A stretch of DNA of 64,000 nt, taken from contig CM060853.1 in assembly GCA_030737835.1 (NCBI GenBank), forward strand, positions 14,358,000 through 14,421,999, written 5' to 3'. Source of the DNA: Acorus gramineus. Taxonomy: Eukaryota; Streptophyta; Magnoliopsida; Acorales; Acoraceae. A program made the position numbers and the translations under genes. Below, in pieces: positions 3,245-52,452 of the stretch. Every line of letters starts with the position of its first letter. Position 1 is the first letter of the stretch. Below the pieces are notes generated by a model that made no database searches, was not told where the DNA came from, and saw nothing but the letters and a program-made list of their open reading frames with translations.

Positions 3245-3800
3245 AAGAAGATGATTAAGGCTAGAGTTTGACTCTATGTCCTTAAGACAATTTTGTTCTG
3301 CTCTGGTGCTCACGGTCCACGGTGACTGTCTTCAAGGATACAATGATCACTCTCTATGGTAGCAACACTTCACACCACAAAGACAATGAACGACTTGTGT
3401 TTTTCAAACTCTCTCTTACTGGAATGCTTTGGAGACTCGAATGCCAACTCTAAGAGACTGTATGCCTGCGCAGTGAATGATTGGATGATATAAAATGCAG
3501 ATAATGGATGGTATTTATAGAGGTAAAAATTAGTTGAAGAGGCTCTTGGAGGAGTCCATTCCTCTGTTTAGTTTTCACTGAAACATAGTCTAAGACACCC
3601 TCTCATTTAAACATCCAACGGTCTGATTGTTACCGTTGATCCTACAGCCCATATTGCTTTTGAGATTGCATCCGATGGACGGTCCAAATTGTATCTGATC
3701 AAAATGATCTCTACAATCCGATTTGACAAAAAGTCCAAAAAGAAAAAGCTCCAGCTCCTAGTGACGATGCGTACGTTCCAAGTGCACCACCCTACATAGA
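3245..3800 (-). repeat. Possible solo LTR or promoter-like fragment
   Basis: Read on the minus strand it contains CTCTATAAATACC (TATA box, plus positions about 3510-3522) in a sequence of more balanced composition than its surroundings. No gene follows on that strand. An LTR fragment is the simplest reading, but no partner LTR is present. Confidence 0.25.
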
Positions 3801-43935: not shown

Positions 43936-44170
43936 CGGTGGGGAGGGCGAGATTTTAAAAATTTATTGGTTTTTCAAAAGTAATGTTTGGGCATTTTCTC
44001 TTAGATTCAGGAGAAATAACACTTTAATTAGAAAATGGCAAACCGTGGCTTTGGAAAAAAAATGTTTGGAGGTGCGTTTGATTATCCACATTTTGACTGC
44101 ATAGATTAGTGGTGATAATTAGGATGGTTAGATTTCTCATTTTTAAACAACCCCCCCCCCCCCCCCCCTC

Positions 44171-45470
44171 GGGTTCGGAGTCTCTGTGGAGACTCCACAG
44201 ACTTTCTCTGTGGAGCGGCCGCGGATGGGCGACGCGTGGAGAGGGCCGCGGATGGGCGACGCGTGGATGGGGGATCACGTGATCTCACGTGGACGACTTG
44301 CCAAGCCCCGATCGCCGATCTCCCTCACCGAAGCCCCGATCGCCGATCTCTCTCACCGAAGCCCCGGCGTCAACGAAGCATCGCCGATCTCCCTCACCGA
44401 AGCCCCGCCGCACCCTCGCCGATCTCCGGTGGTCCTACAGCCACCTCGTGTCTCCCTCACCGAAGCCCCGCCGCACCCTCGCCGATCTCCCGTGGTCCTA
44501 CAGCCACCTCGTGAGTTTCTCATTTTTTTTTTTTTTTGTAATTTGAATGTAGTTTGTCTTGATTGTTTAGGTTCTGATATGGATTTCTGTGGTTTTCATT
44601 TGATTATTTGAATGTGTTTGTTTCATATATGGATTTGAGTAGATTTGATTTGTTATTTGAATGGATTTGTTTCAGATATGGGGTTTGAGTGGATTTGATT
44701 ATGTTATCTGAATTGGTTAGTTTCAGATATGGGTTTGAGTGGATTTCATTTCCAACACTTCAAAATCCTACTGTTTTTTTTTTCTATCTACAGTAGGATC
44801 ATCTTCTGTTATTTTTTTCAGATAAACAGAAGTGTTTAATGGTTTTTAGTTGAGTGGTTCTCATTTGGACATATTTTTCATTTTTATGATCTTTATTCAA
44901 CTCACACTGTCTGAAATTGGATGTGCGAATGGCAGATATTTTTCAGCAATATATTTGTGAAATATTGGCTGAACACTCTGATATCATGTCTCTAGAAGTC
45001 AGAGTACCAAACTACTAGTATTTCCTGATGTGCACATGATTATGTTAGTTGCATTCATCATTACCATTACAGATGATGTTGATCATGGTTGAAAGACTTC
45101 AAATATTTTGGATAAATTTGTCTGCTTGCTTTAGTAAATGATTTCTGATTTTTCTTTTACTATGAATTCTGTTGGCTCTCATGTCATTCTTTATCCCTAT
45201 AAATTGATCAGATTGCAAAGCACGACGATGAGAGGGCTTAAATATTGCACATTGATATTGTATTGTAGTATTCTTCAAGTGCGTACCCACAGGCTATATG
45301 GATCTGCATAATACTATTGATTGATATGCTGGGTATAGATCATGTAGCATGGGAGTTTTAGTGGACTCTATTTGAATGTCAAGAAATTTTTAAAACCATG
45401 ATAAGTTGCTTGTGATCCATACATATTTAGTCATCTTGTGTTGTTGTCTTGTGAATCCTTTCCTTCCAGT
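44171..45470 (+). repeat. Left terminal inverted repeat of the Mutator-like element
   Basis: The outer 340 nt are GC-rich and built of short repeats (CTCCCTCACCGAAGCCCC and a unit of about 64 nt ending in CAGCCACCTCGTG, twice). The inner part is AT-rich. The match to the right TIR is close over almost all the length, apart from a left-only stretch of about 220 nt (45190-45410) and a missing block near 44305. A donor-like CTC|GTGAGT at 44510 could end a 5' leader exon for the GRF gene. Confidence 0.85.
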
Positions 45471-45622
45471 ATTTCCAATCTTCATCACATAGGTTTTTTT
45501 TTTTTCTAACAGCACCATCTTCTGCTTCATGTTATAATCCTACTGTTCCAAGCTAAAAGCATTGTGCTCTATCACTTGCAATCAAAGACTTCCATTTTCT
45601 CTTTTGAGGCTTCCAAGCAACT

Positions 45623-46153
45623 ATGTCAGAAAGTGTAAGTGTTTACCTTTTGTATACCAAGTTTTGATGGAATGTATGAATGAATGAATTTTCTTAGCTA
45701 ATTTTTTACAACAGGTCAATAGCCTACGTAATTCAAATGTTAGGCCACTTCCCGCGCATATTCGGCCACGTGAATGTCGTTGTAAGAAAGGCGAATGTCC
45801 GATTTATACTTCTCGTCAAGAACATAGTAAAGGTCGGAGATTTTATTGTTGTCCTTTTAACAGGGTGAGTTAATTGATTTCAATTATTTTCAAGTTTTTC
45901 ATTACTAATGAGTGAGATCTAATACACATTCTTTTTTTGTTTGTCATTTTTTCCTATGTAGACTTCTCAAGACTGTCGATTTTTTGAATGGATCGATGAC
46001 ACGGATGATCCAATTGTTGAATTGAAGTTTCAACTAGAAAACCATGAAGAGACCATGAAAAAATATTTGAAGATGATGAACAATAGGCTGATAGTGATTA
46101 TGTGGTGCTTAATTGGTCTCTTGGTTATTCAATGTATCAAAGCAATAAGTTAG
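45623..46153 (+). CDS. GRF-type zinc finger protein with membrane segment, 117 aa
   Basis: Three exons, 45623-45634, 45715-45864 and 45962-46153, with GTAAGT and GTGAGT donors, CAG and TAG acceptors, and all joins in phase 0. Residues about 27-70 form a GRF zinc finger: ECRCKKGECPIYTS, then GRRFYCCPF, then DCRFFEWID. These are the ordered cysteines plus the G-R-F and FFEW signature. A charged helix follows (ELKFQLENHEETMKKYLKMM), then a hydrophobic segment near the C-terminus (LIVIMWCLIGLLVI). GRF fingers in NEIL3, APE2 and TOP3A bind single-stranded DNA. GRF plus coiled coil plus C-terminal membrane helix is a common, uncharacterised plant protein type. Here it is the second gene of a transposon, transcribed inward from the left TIR. 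Any role in transposition is inferred. Confidence 0.85.
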
Positions 46154-48717
46154 AGACGAATGCATTTTCAATGATGTTTATGTTGTTGTTGGATGTTCAA
46201 ATAGCTATGTTCAATCCATGAAAATTATCGTTATTTGGTGAATTGTTGTTATTTGGTGAAAAATTTTGTTGGATGTTCAATTAGCTATGTTTGTGGCTTT
46301 GAATCCCAAAGATGTTATGGCCTATGATCAAGTTTGGAATCAGTTGTAGGTGGACCTTTGTACTGAATAAGAAGAAGAACAATTTGAAGAATTTGCATGA
46401 AAGTAATGAGAAGATATGACAAAGTAGGTATTTTATATCAGTGTGTTGTCTAAAACTTGTGAGGGCATGGCTGGATTACTAGCATCTATTCACACAATTC
46501 TGTATGGAGAAAGTTTATCTTATCTTCTTTAAATTCTTGTGAATACAGAATGACTCAGAAATGCTTATTGTCTAAATATCTTATGGGCCACGTGCGTAAG
46601 TTTGGAATCATTGTACTGTAAGTGGCCTTCTGTATCGAATAAAAGCCAATTTAAAGAATTTGCCTGGAAGTAATGAGAAAAAGGATGTGAAGGATTAAGT
46701 TCATATCAGTATATGGTTTAAAATAATTTATTAGGAAGTGACTGGATTACTGGCAGGGTGGAGAAAGTTTTTTCTCATACTCTTTTAGTCCTGATGGTTG
46801 GAGAATCACACAAAATGCTTTTTGTCAAGTACTTCGGTAATAAAACCTCTTTAGAGGCATATTTATTCAACTCTAAATTGCCTCTTCAGCTTGAAGAAGT
46901 TTTTAGAGTGTATTGTTATGGCTTCCAATATAACACTGATTTAAGAAAATGCAAAGATATTGTTTTGCAACTAATATAACCTCTACTCCATGTGGATTTA
47001 TTGTACATTTGAAGCAACTAGACTTTTGTGCTCTCTTTTGAATTTTCCTCTCTTAATATTATGCTGCTCTGAAGATGCTTAAAACCCTTATAATGAGCCA
47101 GATATCATCTCCGAGAAGCTTAGAACCTTACGCATAGCATCTTTTCCTGGGATACCTGTTGATGTTTTGATTTATAAAATGTGTTCTCATCCTAGATATT
47201 TATTTCCTTTGTCCTTCCGTCAATTATATTTTGTAATCTCTTTGTCCTATAAAACCTTCTTCATGAAGAAATACTAAAGATACAAAGTCTTGAAGTGCTA
47301 AGCATAAAATATTGGGATTGCTGACCAAATACAAAGTTTGTTAAAAATTTCAAAAAAATCTGGAGCACTTGCTGTTTTTTAAAAGATTTATATCTCAGGT
47401 GCTCTCAGACATGGGCATAAACTGGGGAATAGTTTGTGTAGATCATTTATTTATACCTTTCATCCCATGCTCCCAACTTCAAAATGCAGGGCTGCTGCTC
47501 CTACCACTATCCATCAAAAACCAAGTCTCATATACCTCATCACATATGGCAGTGTTATAAAATCGGATCCTTGGCCAATGCTGTGTGTCAGATGCTCTTA
47601 CAAAACAACCACCATGTTCAGCTGCTGCGAGCAACTGTTGCTGGATGGACTAGCACATGAACTAATCTTTTTCTTTTTTTAATACTTTAATCATAAAAAA
47701 CAGCCAACAAGTTCTTCAATTTTCATCATGGTTCCATGCCACAGATCACATGGGAATACAAAAAGGAGAAACACAACACAAGAATAATAGATGCTCACAA
47801 TGACTACTCCAAGAAAAACCAGAGGAGATCATCAATCCATACTACATAAAATAAGTACACATGACTAATGTCTCAATAATATTACTTATATAAGGTAACC
47901 AAAGATTTTAAAACGGGCAAATAAGATGGGGAGAAAAAAGAAAAGAAACGAAATCCCACACAAGAAACAACAAACAAAACACAGTTCCTCAAACCAGATA
48001 ATCAATCCCCTACTCAACCAGCAAATATAGAGAGAACAATACAAGAGAACCGTAGAAGCACTTTCTGTGAACAATGGATGGTCCGGACTCATCATACTCT
48101 CCCTTCGATATCCACATCTGCAAAAGCACACTCAGTGAGACTCCACATTTTCTTCGCTAGTGTTTACTAAAAACTAAGGAAAAAGTGCAATGAATTGAAA
48201 TGAAGATGGGTCTAAAAAAGCACCTGAGATTTGTTCAAGCATTGTGAAAAGATGGGTCTAAAAAATAAATTCACCAGGTAAGAATCACCTTCAAAAACAT
48301 ACAATTCATTGGATTATACACCTTCAAAAAAAAAAATCTAAGCAAATGAAGTATACACCTTAAAAAAAAATCTAATTGTGTATCTATTGAACACTGCTTT
48401 ATAAAATGAGTGGTCATACAAGGTCAAGTCTTGGTCCAGGTGATCCCTAATGCAATCAAAACTGAAGATTTCATTCAAAATGTGAATCTGAGAGAAAAAA
48501 TGTAAGCCAATCCTTTATATTCACGAAGAGATATCCAAAGCTAACATCATTAGAAATGCACATTTCAAATACCAAACAATATAATAGAAATGCATTTTTT
48601 CAAACATAACACAACAAGTGCATCATTTAGTTTTGAACACTTAAATATCAAGTAGAACTTCAAAGTATTCAACACTTACATTTGCTTGAGTTTTTACTAC
48701 CCTGAGTGCCAGTAATA
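46154..48717. other. Interior of the Mutator-like element between its genes
   Basis: No convincing third gene. A 160-nt direct repeat (46331-46490 and 46599-46756, sharing AGTTTGGAATCA, AGTAATGAGAA and GGCTGGATTACT-like words) lies just after the GRF gene. Frames at 46758-46979, 47369-47682 and minus 47886-48131 have no recognisable domain. The 3' ends of the two convergent transcripts must lie here. Confidence 0.5.
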
Positions 48718-51142
48718 TTAATCTGTGCTCCTCCATTCTTCAGAAAAATTTGACGCTTGACTCATTTGAGTAGGATAAAAAAGGGATTCTTGCGCCTACA
48801 TATATGAATGTACATATTAATGACCATTTGGAAAAGTAAAAAAATATTTAAAATGTATTTTACATACGAATATACCTGAAGCAATTGAGTCATTGAAGTC
48901 ATTCCTTGACTACTATTGTAGTTCCCAACCGTTGGCGCAAAGGGTTGAGGGCTCTCAATGGCATTGTGGGACGCATGTTGAGTTTGAGAGCTTTGACCTC
49001 GTGATCTCTTCTCCAACACACCGATCCATCTTTTTTGAGGCTTCCCTCCCACAGTCTTCTTTCCTCTTCTTTTGAAGCCTTTAGCAGCCTCGACATTCGA
49101 AATGCTATCCACCTCATCTTGCACATTATCATCTTGACAATTTTGAGATGATTTTCTCAAATCTTCCTCAACCTCCTTCATTAAATCATTTGTGCGGCGT
49201 TTAAGTAGGTCTGTTGAATGGTGTGTTTCAGCTCCCTTGGATGCCACTTGAATGAGACCATGACTTAATTCTTGAAAACGCCTTCCCAATTCAGAAATAG
49301 GGTCAACCTGTAATGAAGAAGAATACATAACTTTACAATAAAATCATACAATCAACTCATAACATTTTTCAATCAATATAATAAACACATATCAACCTGT
49401 ATTGAAGAAGAACAAATATCATGCACCACACCAGATTTTGCATCTCTTGTCCACCTCTTCAAGATATATTGTGGTGGAAGAAATTTGATGTTTCTGTGAT
49501 CAAGAACTTTTAGAACATGGCAACATTGGATACCCATAAATTCAAATTTTTTGCAGCTACAGGTAACCATTTCAGTAGCTGAATCAAACAAAATGGTTCT
49601 TTCATTGCCACGGTCTCGGTGAACTTTGTACTCTATCACAGTCCCCATCTCCCCATGAAAGTAGATAGAACAATTAAGAGATTTTCCATATTCTGCTTGA
49701 AACAATTCAAGGATCTCTGGTGTATAAACATTTGCAACACATGACACCATCAAAGTGTGATATGGAATTACCGGTACAGTATTCGTCATCTTGAAATCAG
49801 CACTCAATTCACTTTCACGCCGGTCATCCATAACCCTATCAAAATGCTGAAAGAAACGTAGCGGATCATGCTTTGAGTTCAAGTAGCGTCTCAGAAGAGC
49901 ATTGAAGCTTTCACTACGTTGTGTACTCTTCATGTCCGCGCAAAATGTGTCTCTCCCATACACTAGAGCCCATTTCTCCTTTTCAGCAAAAGTTTGTTGT
50001 AGCCATTTATTGTCCTGAAGATTGTAATTTTCAAGCATGTTATTCCAAGCAGCTAGGAACTCCTCCTCCGTCTCGTACCCAAATATACAAGCATAGAAGG
50101 AACTTCTGAAACCTTCAATGGCATAAAGATGTCCAATATGCTTTGTTGCATTTTGGGTCAAGTGCCACACACATAGCCGATGACGAGTCTCTGGTAGAAC
50201 AACTGAAATTGCTTTGGCCATCGCCGCTGACTGATCTGTTAGAATAGTCTTAGGATGTCTCCCAGACATTGCTTGAAGAAAAGTTTCAAACAACCAAATA
50301 AATGAGTCAGCTGTCTCATCATAAAGTAATGCACCACCAAAAATAATTGTTTGCCGATGATTATTCACCCCAACGAATGGTGCAAATGGTCTTCCATGAT
50401 TATTTGTACGATAGGTCGTGTCGAAGCAAATTACATCACCATAATGTGCATAATCGACGATAGACCTAGCATCGGCCCAAAACACATTTGTTATTTGTTC
50501 ATCGGCATCAAGTTGCATTGAGTGAAAGAAAGACGGATTTTGCTTTTGCTTATTCTTGAAATACTGAATAAGAGCACCCGCAATTCCATTCTCCATTCTT
50601 GTTTCCCTTTTGGTGCGCAGGTAAGACTTCACATCATTCAAAATAAAACCAAGATTTCTTCTTCCTCCAACTTGTCCACTCATCAAATCCATAACTGCTT
50701 TTGGTGCTAATCCTGAACCATCTATGATATCAACCTGAGCAGCTTGAGCTTTTCCAATTTTTCTATGTGACCTCAAATTATGGCGCAAGGGGGTTGATAC
50801 AAGATCATGATTATGATTTTGTTCAAATTTAGTGACATGATAAGCACCAGAAGACTGATAAGAGATAATCATATGTGCCTCACATCCTGTTCTTGTATCG
50901 GGTTGTGGGTGCAAGACTTTTCGCTTATCAACCCCTTTCCTCCCTTCTTTAGAACAACAAAATTTTCTCTTTCTCACTATGCCATTGGACTTGAATGCAT
51001 CACTTTTTCGGATACTAAATCCAATTGACCTTGCATATGTGTTGTAGAATTGATGGGCACTATCTTCAGAATCAAATGCCATACCAACTTCAGGTATACC
51101 ATTATAGCTACATTCACCCACAATCTCATTGTCTCCTTCCAT
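48718..51142 (-). CDS. FAR1/FHY3-type Mutator transposase, 751 aa
   Basis: Three exons on the minus strand, 51142-49397, 49307-48876 and 48795-48718, all in phase 0. FAR1 DNA-binding domain at residues about 30-113, with zinc ligands in FCCS (62-63), GCEA (87) and NHNHDL (110, 112). MULE transposase domain about 235-415, with the DDE residues D241 (CFDTTYRTN), D303 (LTDQSAAM) and E411 (STQRSESFN), plus CVWH (324-327). SWIM zinc finger CSC...CCH at 528-542. The C-terminal exons encode a charged helix and a basic patch (KRRGKKTVGGKPQKRW). The length is close to that of FAR1/FRS proteins. It starts about 70 nt inside the right TIR, with an acceptor (TTATAG) in the 5' leader. The TIRs mark it as the element's transposase and not a domesticated FRS regulator. 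No stop, frameshift or missing catalytic residue was seen. Confidence 0.9.
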
Positions 51143-51208
51143 AACAACTCAGTGTTCACCTATAAGAAGAAAACATAATTTAGAACATTTAACAAGACAA
51201 CTGGAAGG

Positions 51209-52452
51209 AAAGGATTCACAAGACAACAACACAAGATGACTAAATATGTATGGATCATAAATATGTATGGATCATAAATATGTATGGAATGACATGAGAG
51301 CCAACAGAATTCATAGTAAAAGAAAAATCAGAAATCATTTACTAAAGCAAGCAGACAAATTTATCCAAAATATTTGAAGTCTTTCAACCATGATCAACAT
51401 CATCTGTAATGGTAATGATGAATGCAACTAACATAATCATGTGCACATCAGGAAATACTAGTAGTTTGGTACTCTGACTTCTAGAGACATGATATCAGAG
51501 TGTTCAGCCAATATTTCACAAATATATTGCTGAAAAATATCTGCCATTCGCACATCCAATTTCAGACAGTGTGAGTTGAATAAAGATCATAAAAATGAAA
51601 AATATGTCCAAATGAGAACCACTCAACTAAAAACCATTAAACACTTCTGTTTATCTGAAAAAATAACAGAAGATGATCCTACTGTAGATAGAAAAAAAAA
51701 CAGTAGGATTTTGAAGTGTTGGAAATGAAATCCACTCAAACCCATATCTGAAACTAACCAATTCAGATAACATAATCAAATCCACTCAAACCCCATATCT
51801 GAAACAAACCATTCAAATAACAAATCAAATCTACTCAAATCCATATATGAAACAAACACATTCAAATAATCAAATGAAAACCAGAGAAATCCATATCAGA
51901 ACCTAAACAATCAAGACAGAACTACATTCAAATTACAAAAAAAAAAAAAAATGAGAAACTCACGAGGTGGCTGTAGGACCACGGGAGATCGGCGAGGGTG
52001 CGGCGGGGCTTCGGTGAGGGAGACACGAGGTGGCTGTAGGACCACCGGAGATCGGCGAGGGTGCGGCGGGGCTTCGGTGAGGGAGATCGGCGAGGCTTCG
52101 TTGACGTCGGGGCTTCGGTGAGGGAGATCGGCAATCGGGGGTTCGGTGAGGGAGATCGGCGATCGGGGCTTCGGTGAGGGAGATCGGCGAGGCTTCGTTG
52201 ACGCCGGGGCTTCGGTGAGGGAGATCGATCGGCGATCGGCTTCGGAGGTTGGCGAGGGTTTCCACGTTTGATGGGAGAGGAGACTCCACAGAGAGAGTTC
52301 GAAGTCGTCAACGAGGCTTGGCAAGTCGTCCACGTGAGATCACGTGATCCCCCATCCACGCGTCGCCCATCCGCGGCCCTCTCCACGCGTCGCCCATCCG
52401 CGGCCGCTCCACAGAGAAAGTCTGTGGAGTCTCCACAGAGACTCCGAACCCC
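51209..52452 (-). repeat. Right terminal inverted repeat of the Mutator-like element
   Basis: Inverted counterpart of 44171-45470. Read on the minus strand it has the same GGGTTCGGAGTC start, twin GGATGGGCGACGCGTGGA units, CTCACCGAAGCC repeats and a CCTC|GTGAGT donor. It has an extra block of about 95 nt (52215-52310) absent on the left, more CTCACCGAAG units, and a triple ATATGTATGGATCATAA repeat at 51244-51292. It probably acts as the transposase promoter and 5' leader. Confidence 0.85.

Follow-up and report, generated by a model that had tools for sequence, protein, structure and literature searches.

Our study describes a two-gene Mutator-like element (MULE) at positions 44171-52451 of a 64,000-nt stretch of the Acorus gramineus genome (contig CM060853.1, positions 14,358,000 to 14,421,999; hereafter the window). 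The element carries a FAR1-type transposase gene facing a small gene for a protein with a GRF zinc ribbon. This second gene accompanies the transposase in every near-complete copy examined in the family, is replaced in sister families by a GRF gene of another type or by a gene with an RNase H1 N-terminal domain (HBD), and, in one tree of eight proteins, has a history incongruent with that of the transposase. We think it probable, with moderate rather than high confidence, that this is a recently mobile and probably autonomous FAR1-type MULE whose second gene position, the slot, holds exchangeable tail-anchored nucleic-acid-binding helpers.

The element is bounded by terminal inverted repeats (TIRs) and a target-site duplication (TSD), and is organized as follows in window coordinates:

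44161-44170: left TSD, 10 bp, CCCCCCCCTC, read from the sequence, inside a C run
44171-45189, plus strand: left TIR, main part, from inverted-repeat comparison (inner matching piece at 45410-45470)
44171-44213, plus strand: terminal 43 nt, candidate transposase binding site, alignable with the ends of two sister families
44319-44520, plus strand: GC-rich short-repeat part of the left TIR, with four CACCGAAGCCC by sequence count
45623-45634, plus strand: GRF exon 1 (MSES), from the gene model and present in all 12 whole GRF copies
45715-45864, plus strand: GRF exon 2 (most of the zinc ribbon), from the model, Pfam and the copies
45962-46153, plus strand: GRF exon 3 (end of the zinc ribbon, C-terminal hydrophobic segment, stop), from the model and the copies
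46091-46147, plus strand: predicted tail-anchor codons, residues 98-116, mean hydropathy 2.46, one residue after
48718-48795, minus strand: transposase exon 3 and stop, from the spliced model
48876-49307, minus strand: transposase exon 2, from the spliced model
49308-49396, minus strand: transposase intron 1, 89 nt, absent from the sister-family loci L041 and L044
49397-51142, minus strand: transposase exon 1 (FAR1 DNA-binding, MULE catalytic and SWIM domains), from the spliced model and Pfam
51200-52451, minus strand: right TIR (main part 51287-52451, inner matching piece 51200-51260)
44171-44310 / 52312-52451: inverted arm pair, 99% identity
44303-44554 / 51920-52171: inverted arm pair, 98% identity
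44555-44667 / 51806-51918: inverted arm pair, 98% identity
44666-44782 / 51692-51808: inverted arm pair, 100% identity
44813-45189 / 51287-51663: inverted arm pair, 100% identity
45410-45470 / 51200-51260: inner 61-nt arm pair, 98% identity
52452-52461: right TSD, 10 bp, CCCCCCCCTC, read from the sequence

The TIRs match over about 1.0-1.3 kb and their arms are nearly identical, with 6 substitutions in 888 positions plus 0 in 137, once indels are set aside. These are a shift of about 148 nt within the GC-rich CACCGAAGCCC repeats, where the arms differ in length, and about 190 nt extra at the left inner side. The motif CACCGAAGCCC occurs five times in the right TIR (GC-rich repeats at 52000-52230) and nowhere between the two TIRs, and a binding protein encoded by the element might target these repeats. 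The terminal sequence begins GGGTTCGG, and CCCCCCCCTC is repeated perfectly on both flanks as a 10-bp TSD, the exact limits of which are uncertain because it sits in the C run. The two genes begin just inside the TIRs, with start codons some 60-150 nt further in than the matching TIR pieces reach, so that the promoters of both may fairly be placed in these repeats. The element has the features by which MULEs are recognized: a MULE-domain transposase with FAR1 and SWIM domains, long TIRs, a TSD of 8-11 bp, and dispersed copies.

The spliced model of the transposase gene has three exons and encodes 751 aa, with Pfam matches to FAR1 (PF03101, 4.2e-23), MULE (PF10551, 6.3e-30) and SWIM (PF04434, 5.7e-7); the positions of the DDE residues, assigned by eye, are presumed. 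Pfam gave no DBD_Tnp_Mut match in this protein, which is thus not MuDR-like in the way the transposase of Abermu is, and sequence search found no PDB relative of exon 1. The splice sites examined in the window are GT/AG, and the models of both genes rest on the sequence and on splice sites kept among copies. Intron 1 is missing in L041 and L044, where the reading frame is continuous, and both its borders carry TTCTTCTTCA[A/T]TACAG|GTTGA, about 21 nt nearly duplicated. The intron looks like the product of an insertion or of a repair event, with AG|GT inside the short direct repeat that was left behind.

The GRF gene has three exons, its first intron has the donor GTAAGT, and it encodes 117 aa in which Pfam found only the GRF zinc ribbon (Zn_ribbon_GRF, PF06839, 7.6e-9). 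Zinc ribbons of this family bind single-stranded DNA. The residues C25, C27, C50, C59, F62 and W64 are invariant across seven GRF proteins, and the head matches by sequence the GRF structures of NEIL3 (7jl5, 8.9e-9; 7omk, 5.1e-8), and the protein is predicted from these likenesses to bind nucleic acid. All eight relatives recovered by shared 5-residue words are from Acorus, as are 11 of 12 in a second search, which also returned P0012; this search, limited to shared 5-residue words, identified no GRF homologue outside Acorus. Close GRF relatives are encoded in A. calamus, the source also of both matches (2/2) of an HBD homologue search. The first-pass annotation of this DNA had described a FAR1-type Mutator element with two convergent genes, almost identical TIRs of about 1.2-1.3 kb, an intact spliced gene for a 751-aa FAR1-type transposase with SWIM, and a 117-aa GRF zinc finger protein on the left. 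Gene models, Pfam, TIRs and TSD bear out this description, with the TIR length now measured and near-identity holding except for indels.

The second gene is not peculiar to the window. A 230-nt piece of the TIR has 96 matches in the 398.6-Mb assembly, and 19 places were examined, i.e. the window and 18 fetched ones (two of these as two halves), some of them pieces of copies. Ten hold a near-complete transposase gene (the window, L009, L010, L011, L013, L014, L016, L018, L022 and L026), and a convergent GRF gene accompanies it in all ten. Because of this, the GRF gene is a constant part of the family and its chance capture by a single copy is ruled out. The earlier reading had proposed to check whether full copies always hold this gene, and had likened the convergent plan to that of maize MuDR; the ten copies agree on both counts. 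Twelve places have the GRF gene whole, and its frame is intact in all 12; L017, L021 and L023 have it in partial or broken form, and L012, L015, L025 and L028 lack it. About 47 kb separate the GRF gene of L027 from the partial transposase of L028, and these loci may be two ends of a single, interrupted copy. Five of the ten copies (the window, L010, L011, L013 and L022) have an intact transposase frame; the contrast with the GRF frames is not evidence of selection, because the GRF gene is 6-fold shorter.

Part of the family appears to have moved recently. Both ends were located in 13 of the 19 places, six of which have perfect TSDs at differing sites, of 9 bp (L011, L012, L017, L019) or 10 bp (L023, the window). 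The TSD of L013 has one mismatch, those of L009, L010 and L025 are imperfect or shifted, and none was found in L014, L015 and L021. TIR pairs were compared in 12 places: the mismatches in L010 to L014 are 4/1156, 2/1226, 1/1173, 4/1223 and 2/1225, respectively, and the pairs are more diverged or rearranged in L009, L015, L017, L019, L023 and L025. Recent movement, which the annotation had proposed, is supported by the scarcity of mismatches in these first five copies (1-4 in about 1200 nt each) together with the TSDs. The element is plausibly autonomous. L012, L015 and L025 are copies of 1.1-3.1 kb with the TIRs of the family and neither gene, and are probably non-autonomous derivatives mobilised by two-gene copies.

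In sister families the transposase is conserved and the slot gene is not. The transposases of L041 and L042 are about 87% identical to that of the window (L041, 87.3% over 582 residues), and that of L044 is 87.5% identical over 582 residues. The second gene of L041 and L042 is a GRF gene of another type, in a single open frame, and the convergent second frame of L044 encodes an HBD protein (PF01693, 2.9e-18), with no GRF among the frames read in 8.5 kb of this locus. A more distant relative, L045, has a transposase only 36% identical to that of the window and a 130-aa GRF frame. The two genes lie between inverted repeats in L041 and L042 (53-74 nt), L044 (944 nt, 97%) and L045 (757 nt, 93%). 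The ratio of nonsynonymous to synonymous substitution rates (dN/dS) of the transposase is 0.22-0.26 among the three close families, at dS of 0.32-0.40, which implies that a functional transposase was maintained in each of the three through most of its history. Comparisons between families with blastn found nothing shared outside the transposase gene. The outer 43 nt or so of the element ends, trimmed by eye for this alignment, can be aligned between families (0-1 of 2000 shuffles are as good per family pair), and are the likely recognition site of the transposase, retained while the rest drifted. We considered that the transposase gene might have passed from family to family as a DNA module with sharp limits and rejected this, since plain non-coding divergence explains the limits of the blastn matches. 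A further locus, L043, has a transposase 54% identical to that of the window and a tandem GRF piece (E 0.006) at a distance of 7.5 kb, with no TIR pair seen around the two.

The slot gene also has its own history. The window GRF protein scores 82 and 65 bits against GRFs of MuDR-type elements and 27 bits against that of the sister family, so that the pair formed by the window and L041 was of interest before the tree was made. In this tree, of eight proteins, the window GRF groups with P0005, L031 and L036, the last two of which face MuDR-type transposases, and a 100/100 branch separates this group from the GRFs of L029, L041, L045 and L058, which face FAR1 transposases. A tree constrained to join the window and L041 GRFs is worse by 40 log-likelihood units and is rejected (p-AU 2.2e-5). 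By this tree, then, transposase and slot gene have different histories. MULE lineages thus appear to have traded slot genes, even across the divide between FAR1- and MuDR-type elements. Between L031 and L036, beside MuDR-type transposases, the dN/dS of the GRF gene is about 0.31.

Proteins with different heads often resemble each other in the character of their C-terminal ends. A hydrophobic segment (mean hydropathy over 19 residues of 1.99-3.57) closes each of the seven GRF proteins tested, with 0-10 residues after it, and the GRF frame of L058 has one too (3.03, 4 residues after). Outside these seven remain L030, L032 and L033, near-copies of L029 or L031 with the same kind of tail, as well as L034 and L035. 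Five of six HBD frames end in a strongly hydrophobic segment, as judged by score (L053, L055, L056) or by eye (L054, L057), and that of L044 ends differently (best hydropathy 1.75). Among the tailed HBD frames, L053 and L054 are near FAR1 matches listed in the genome search, and L055-L057 have none among those listed. The GRF proteins tested and most of the HBD frames read are thus predicted to be tail-anchored. The AlphaFold model of P0005 (pTM 0.33) was consulted for its C-terminal helix only. A PLL motif recurs in the linkers of the L041 GRF and the five HBD frames L053-L057 (EEPLL, TPLL, TPLL, TPLL, KPLL and QPLL), where it may serve in sorting or be left from a common ancestor.

The pairing of slot genes with transposases extends across the genome. 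Domain searches listed 78 GRF matches (best 150 of 304 candidates scored), 150 FAR1 matches (best 150 of 760), 150 MULE matches (best 150 of 1162) and 136 HBD matches (best 150 of 152); the lists are incomplete, and the window GRF, split by an intron, is missing from that for GRF. Among these listed matches, 19 of 78 GRF and 24 of 136 HBD matches lie within 12 kb of a FAR1 match, when even spacing predicts 0.70 and 1.23, respectively. Even spacing is a lenient control because mobile elements cluster, and this leniency leaves the orientation of the pairs unexplained: 39 of the 43 are convergent (16 GRF pairs, with 3 tandem by nearest neighbour, and 23 HBD pairs, with 1 tandem). One of the 19 GRF pairs has a second, divergent FAR1 neighbour. 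Of the 150 listed FAR1 matches, 24 have an HBD neighbour, 20 a GRF neighbour, and none both.

Some listed matches were examined more closely. Seven further GRF loci without a listed FAR1 or MULE neighbour (L046-L052) were picked by score and type, not randomly, and six of them face a MULE transposase in the downstream flank. The transposases are of MuDR type in L046 and L048 (PF03108 and PF10551 by Pfam) and in L049 (by similarity to L046), of FAR1 type in L047 (Pfam), a broken FAR1 relative of the window family in L050, and only a FAR1-type fragment of 67 residues in L051. Conversely, of a pair of FAR1 loci with no neighbour in the lists, one, L058, is faced by a GRF gene in convergent orientation. 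Eight 3-kb loci at GRF matches (L029-L036) gave no match to the window transposase, and three of them have a transposase further out. Behind the MuDR-type transposase of L046 lies a MATH-like frame (3309-3746, minus strand; PF22486, 4.9e-4, under the family cut-off), which may be a host gene or a captured piece. About two dozen HBD frames of similar score have some 192-197 aa; the one read, L056, has a tail anchor and no FAR1 or MULE neighbour among the listed matches, and such frames may mark another mobile family.

Several observations weigh against the interpretation of the slot as a place for exchangeable tail-anchored helpers. At the level of the family, the transposase gene is broken in five of ten copies, and the GRF copies differ from that of the window at 0-2 synonymous and 1-3 nonsynonymous sites. 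Purifying selection within the family is not apparent from such counts, and the GRF gene could be a passenger kept by recent copying alone. Between L029 and L030, the dN/dS of the GRF gene is 0.70. Regarding the pairing, 3 of the 19 listed GRF neighbours are tandem, L043 included, L052 has no transposase in the 4 kb alongside, and the second FAR1 locus examined, L059, has neither GRF nor HBD in 4.2 kb. The pairing in L046-L051 is one of neighbourhood, and 52 of the 78 listed GRF matches are neither near a listed FAR1 match nor examined in their flanks beyond 1.5 kb. Regarding the exchange, intron 2 and most transposase flanks of the sister families do not align above shuffles, with the exception of the region upstream of the L044 gene, and because of this a clean module swap is not apparent at the DNA level. 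Regarding the tails, hydropathy alone is no proof of a membrane anchor. The 81-aa GRF frame of L035 stops ahead of the tail, L034 yielded no frame, and six of ten database GRF models (P0001-P0004, P0006, P0008) have no such tail; these six are automatic models of split genes, and in the window the tail sits in a separate exon. Finally, the tail of the L041 GRF is similar to those of HBD frames to very different degrees (0 of 1000 shuffles for L055, 18 for L053, 89 for L056), which suggests shared ancestry of the tails for some pairs only.

Exchangeable tail-anchored helpers could work in the following way. The transposase would recognise the conserved terminal 43 bp or so of the TIRs, and its cutting and joining of the element would duplicate 9-10 bp at the target site. 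The promoter of each gene would probably be supplied by the long TIR that ends just upstream of its start codon. The slot gene would provide a small protein made of an interchangeable nucleic-acid-binding head, GRF or HBD, and usually a C-terminal membrane anchor, and such genes would pass between MULE lineages, including those of FAR1 and MuDR type. Their products would likely bind the single-stranded DNA or the RNA of the element at a membrane, of the nuclear envelope or the endoplasmic reticulum, where they could aid a late step of transposition, as mudrB does, or shield transcripts from silencing.

The nature of this help is less clear. It is possible, if doubtful, that the slot protein is a counter-silencing factor, similar to VANC or to a viral suppressor, which binds the RNA or DNA of the element and repels the small-RNA or methylation machinery. 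An arms race predicts the fast replacement of slot genes beside a conserved transposase, and this pattern fits counter-silencing somewhat better than a fixed mechanical role. The CACCGAAGCCC repeats, four and five in the TIRs and none in the middle, might offer such a protein its target. The HBD head carries the Pfam name Cauli_VI, and the caulimovirus protein with this domain suppresses silencing. VANDAL elements, in the published passages used here, encode sequence-specific anti-silencing proteins. Yet, a membrane tail is unusual for a chromatin factor, and the heads are general nucleic-acid binders in which sequence specificity is not obvious.

A little less probable is that the slot protein helps excision or insertion in the manner of maize MURB, acting in reintegration and perhaps holding single-stranded intermediates. 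The GRF head does resemble the GRF fingers of NEIL3, and the convergent plan is that of MuDR, in which mudrB is apparently required for integration according to passages of PMC6446971 and PMC9168764. A mechanical helper is harder to reconcile with closely related transposases paired with unrelated heads in two families that both seem recently mobile. The sections of PMC9168764 that we used also report Jittery and Os3378 with a single gene and rice Abermu elements without ORFR that are polymorphic.

We find it improbable that slot genes are functionless hitchhikers, captured from the host as in Pack-MULEs. Repair proteins and RNase H proteins of the host likewise contain GRF and HBD domains. 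MULEs are described to take up host genes (in passages of PMC6446971), and the lack of a sign of selection on the GRF gene within the family is what one would expect of a passenger. Against this stand the fixed convergent position in 10 of 10 near-complete copies, the GRF frames intact in 12 of 12, the repeated use of two domain types, and the dN/dS of about 0.31 between the L031 and L036 genes of MuDR-type elements. Fast divergence in place, in which all slot GRF genes descend without exchange from one ancestor, is the least probable: non-coding DNA is already unalignable between sister families, and barley ORFR has Ka and Ks well above those of the transposase (in sections of PMC9168764), but the window GRF is nearer to those of MuDR-type elements than to that of the sister family (82 and 65 versus 27 bits), its clade with L041 is rejected (p-AU 2.2e-5), and HBD and GRF are different Pfam families. 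A broader conjecture, which we consider unlikely, is that MULEs of at least two transposase classes share a slot whose products are all tail-anchored nucleic-acid binders serving membrane-based counter-silencing or protection of intermediates, and that the unexplained second reading frames of MULEs in other plants, such as ORFR of Abermu, are members of this set.

MuDR has long TIRs and a TSD of the 9-bp class. Like the window element, it has two genes on opposite strands, for a transposase and a helper, the latter being mudrB. The window element differs in its FAR1-type transposase and in a second gene encoding a GRF protein with a predicted tail anchor. Jittery, which we take to be a FAR1-type relative, and Os3378 are also MULE transposons with TIRs and TSD and differ in that they are reported with a single gene. 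The match to the NEIL3 GRF fingers spans the zinc ribbon, whereas the window protein is a single ribbon with a C-terminal hydrophobic segment and is borne by a transposon. From comparison with the literature we consulted in part, the closest published parallel found is Abermu, of barley and other plants, in which a second gene on the opposite strand of ORF1, ORFR, is unrelated between similar elements and differs between plants (sections of PMC9168764). The Abermu transposase is MuDR-like, and the sections consulted give no domain for ORFR; here, the slot gene can be assigned a domain design, and a tree supports its exchange among lineages of a single genome. The authors of that study left the origin and function of ORFR open, asking for barley whether a single ancestor gave rise to it through rapid evolution or it was gained by independent acquisition (PMC9168764, same sections). 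The extra MULE genes named in passages of PMC6446971 are mudrB, mutB, vanB and vanC. Among them, those of the VANDAL elements of Arabidopsis, such as Hiun, are divergent accessory genes of MULEs, with vanC acting against silencing; these passages mention no tail-anchored GRF or HBD protein, and our likening to VANC is by description, not sequence. A term search found no occurrence of GRF in the passages of PMC6446971 or in the main text of PMC8599713, and the titles and abstract openings in our partial coverage of the literature describe no GRF or tail-anchored MULE protein.

The role and origin of the second genes of MULEs are an open question in the field. Our results go beyond the first-pass view of a single element, in that its second gene is one of several interchangeable slot genes found beside FAR1- and MuDR-type transposases. 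In a single genome, genes with unrelated heads take each other's place next to a conserved transposase, and exchange of the slot gene has apparently extended across transposase classes. The recurring design, a nucleic-acid-binding head with a membrane tail, makes the question of the second genes testable, and leads to another: why a DNA transposon would need a membrane-anchored nucleic-acid binder.

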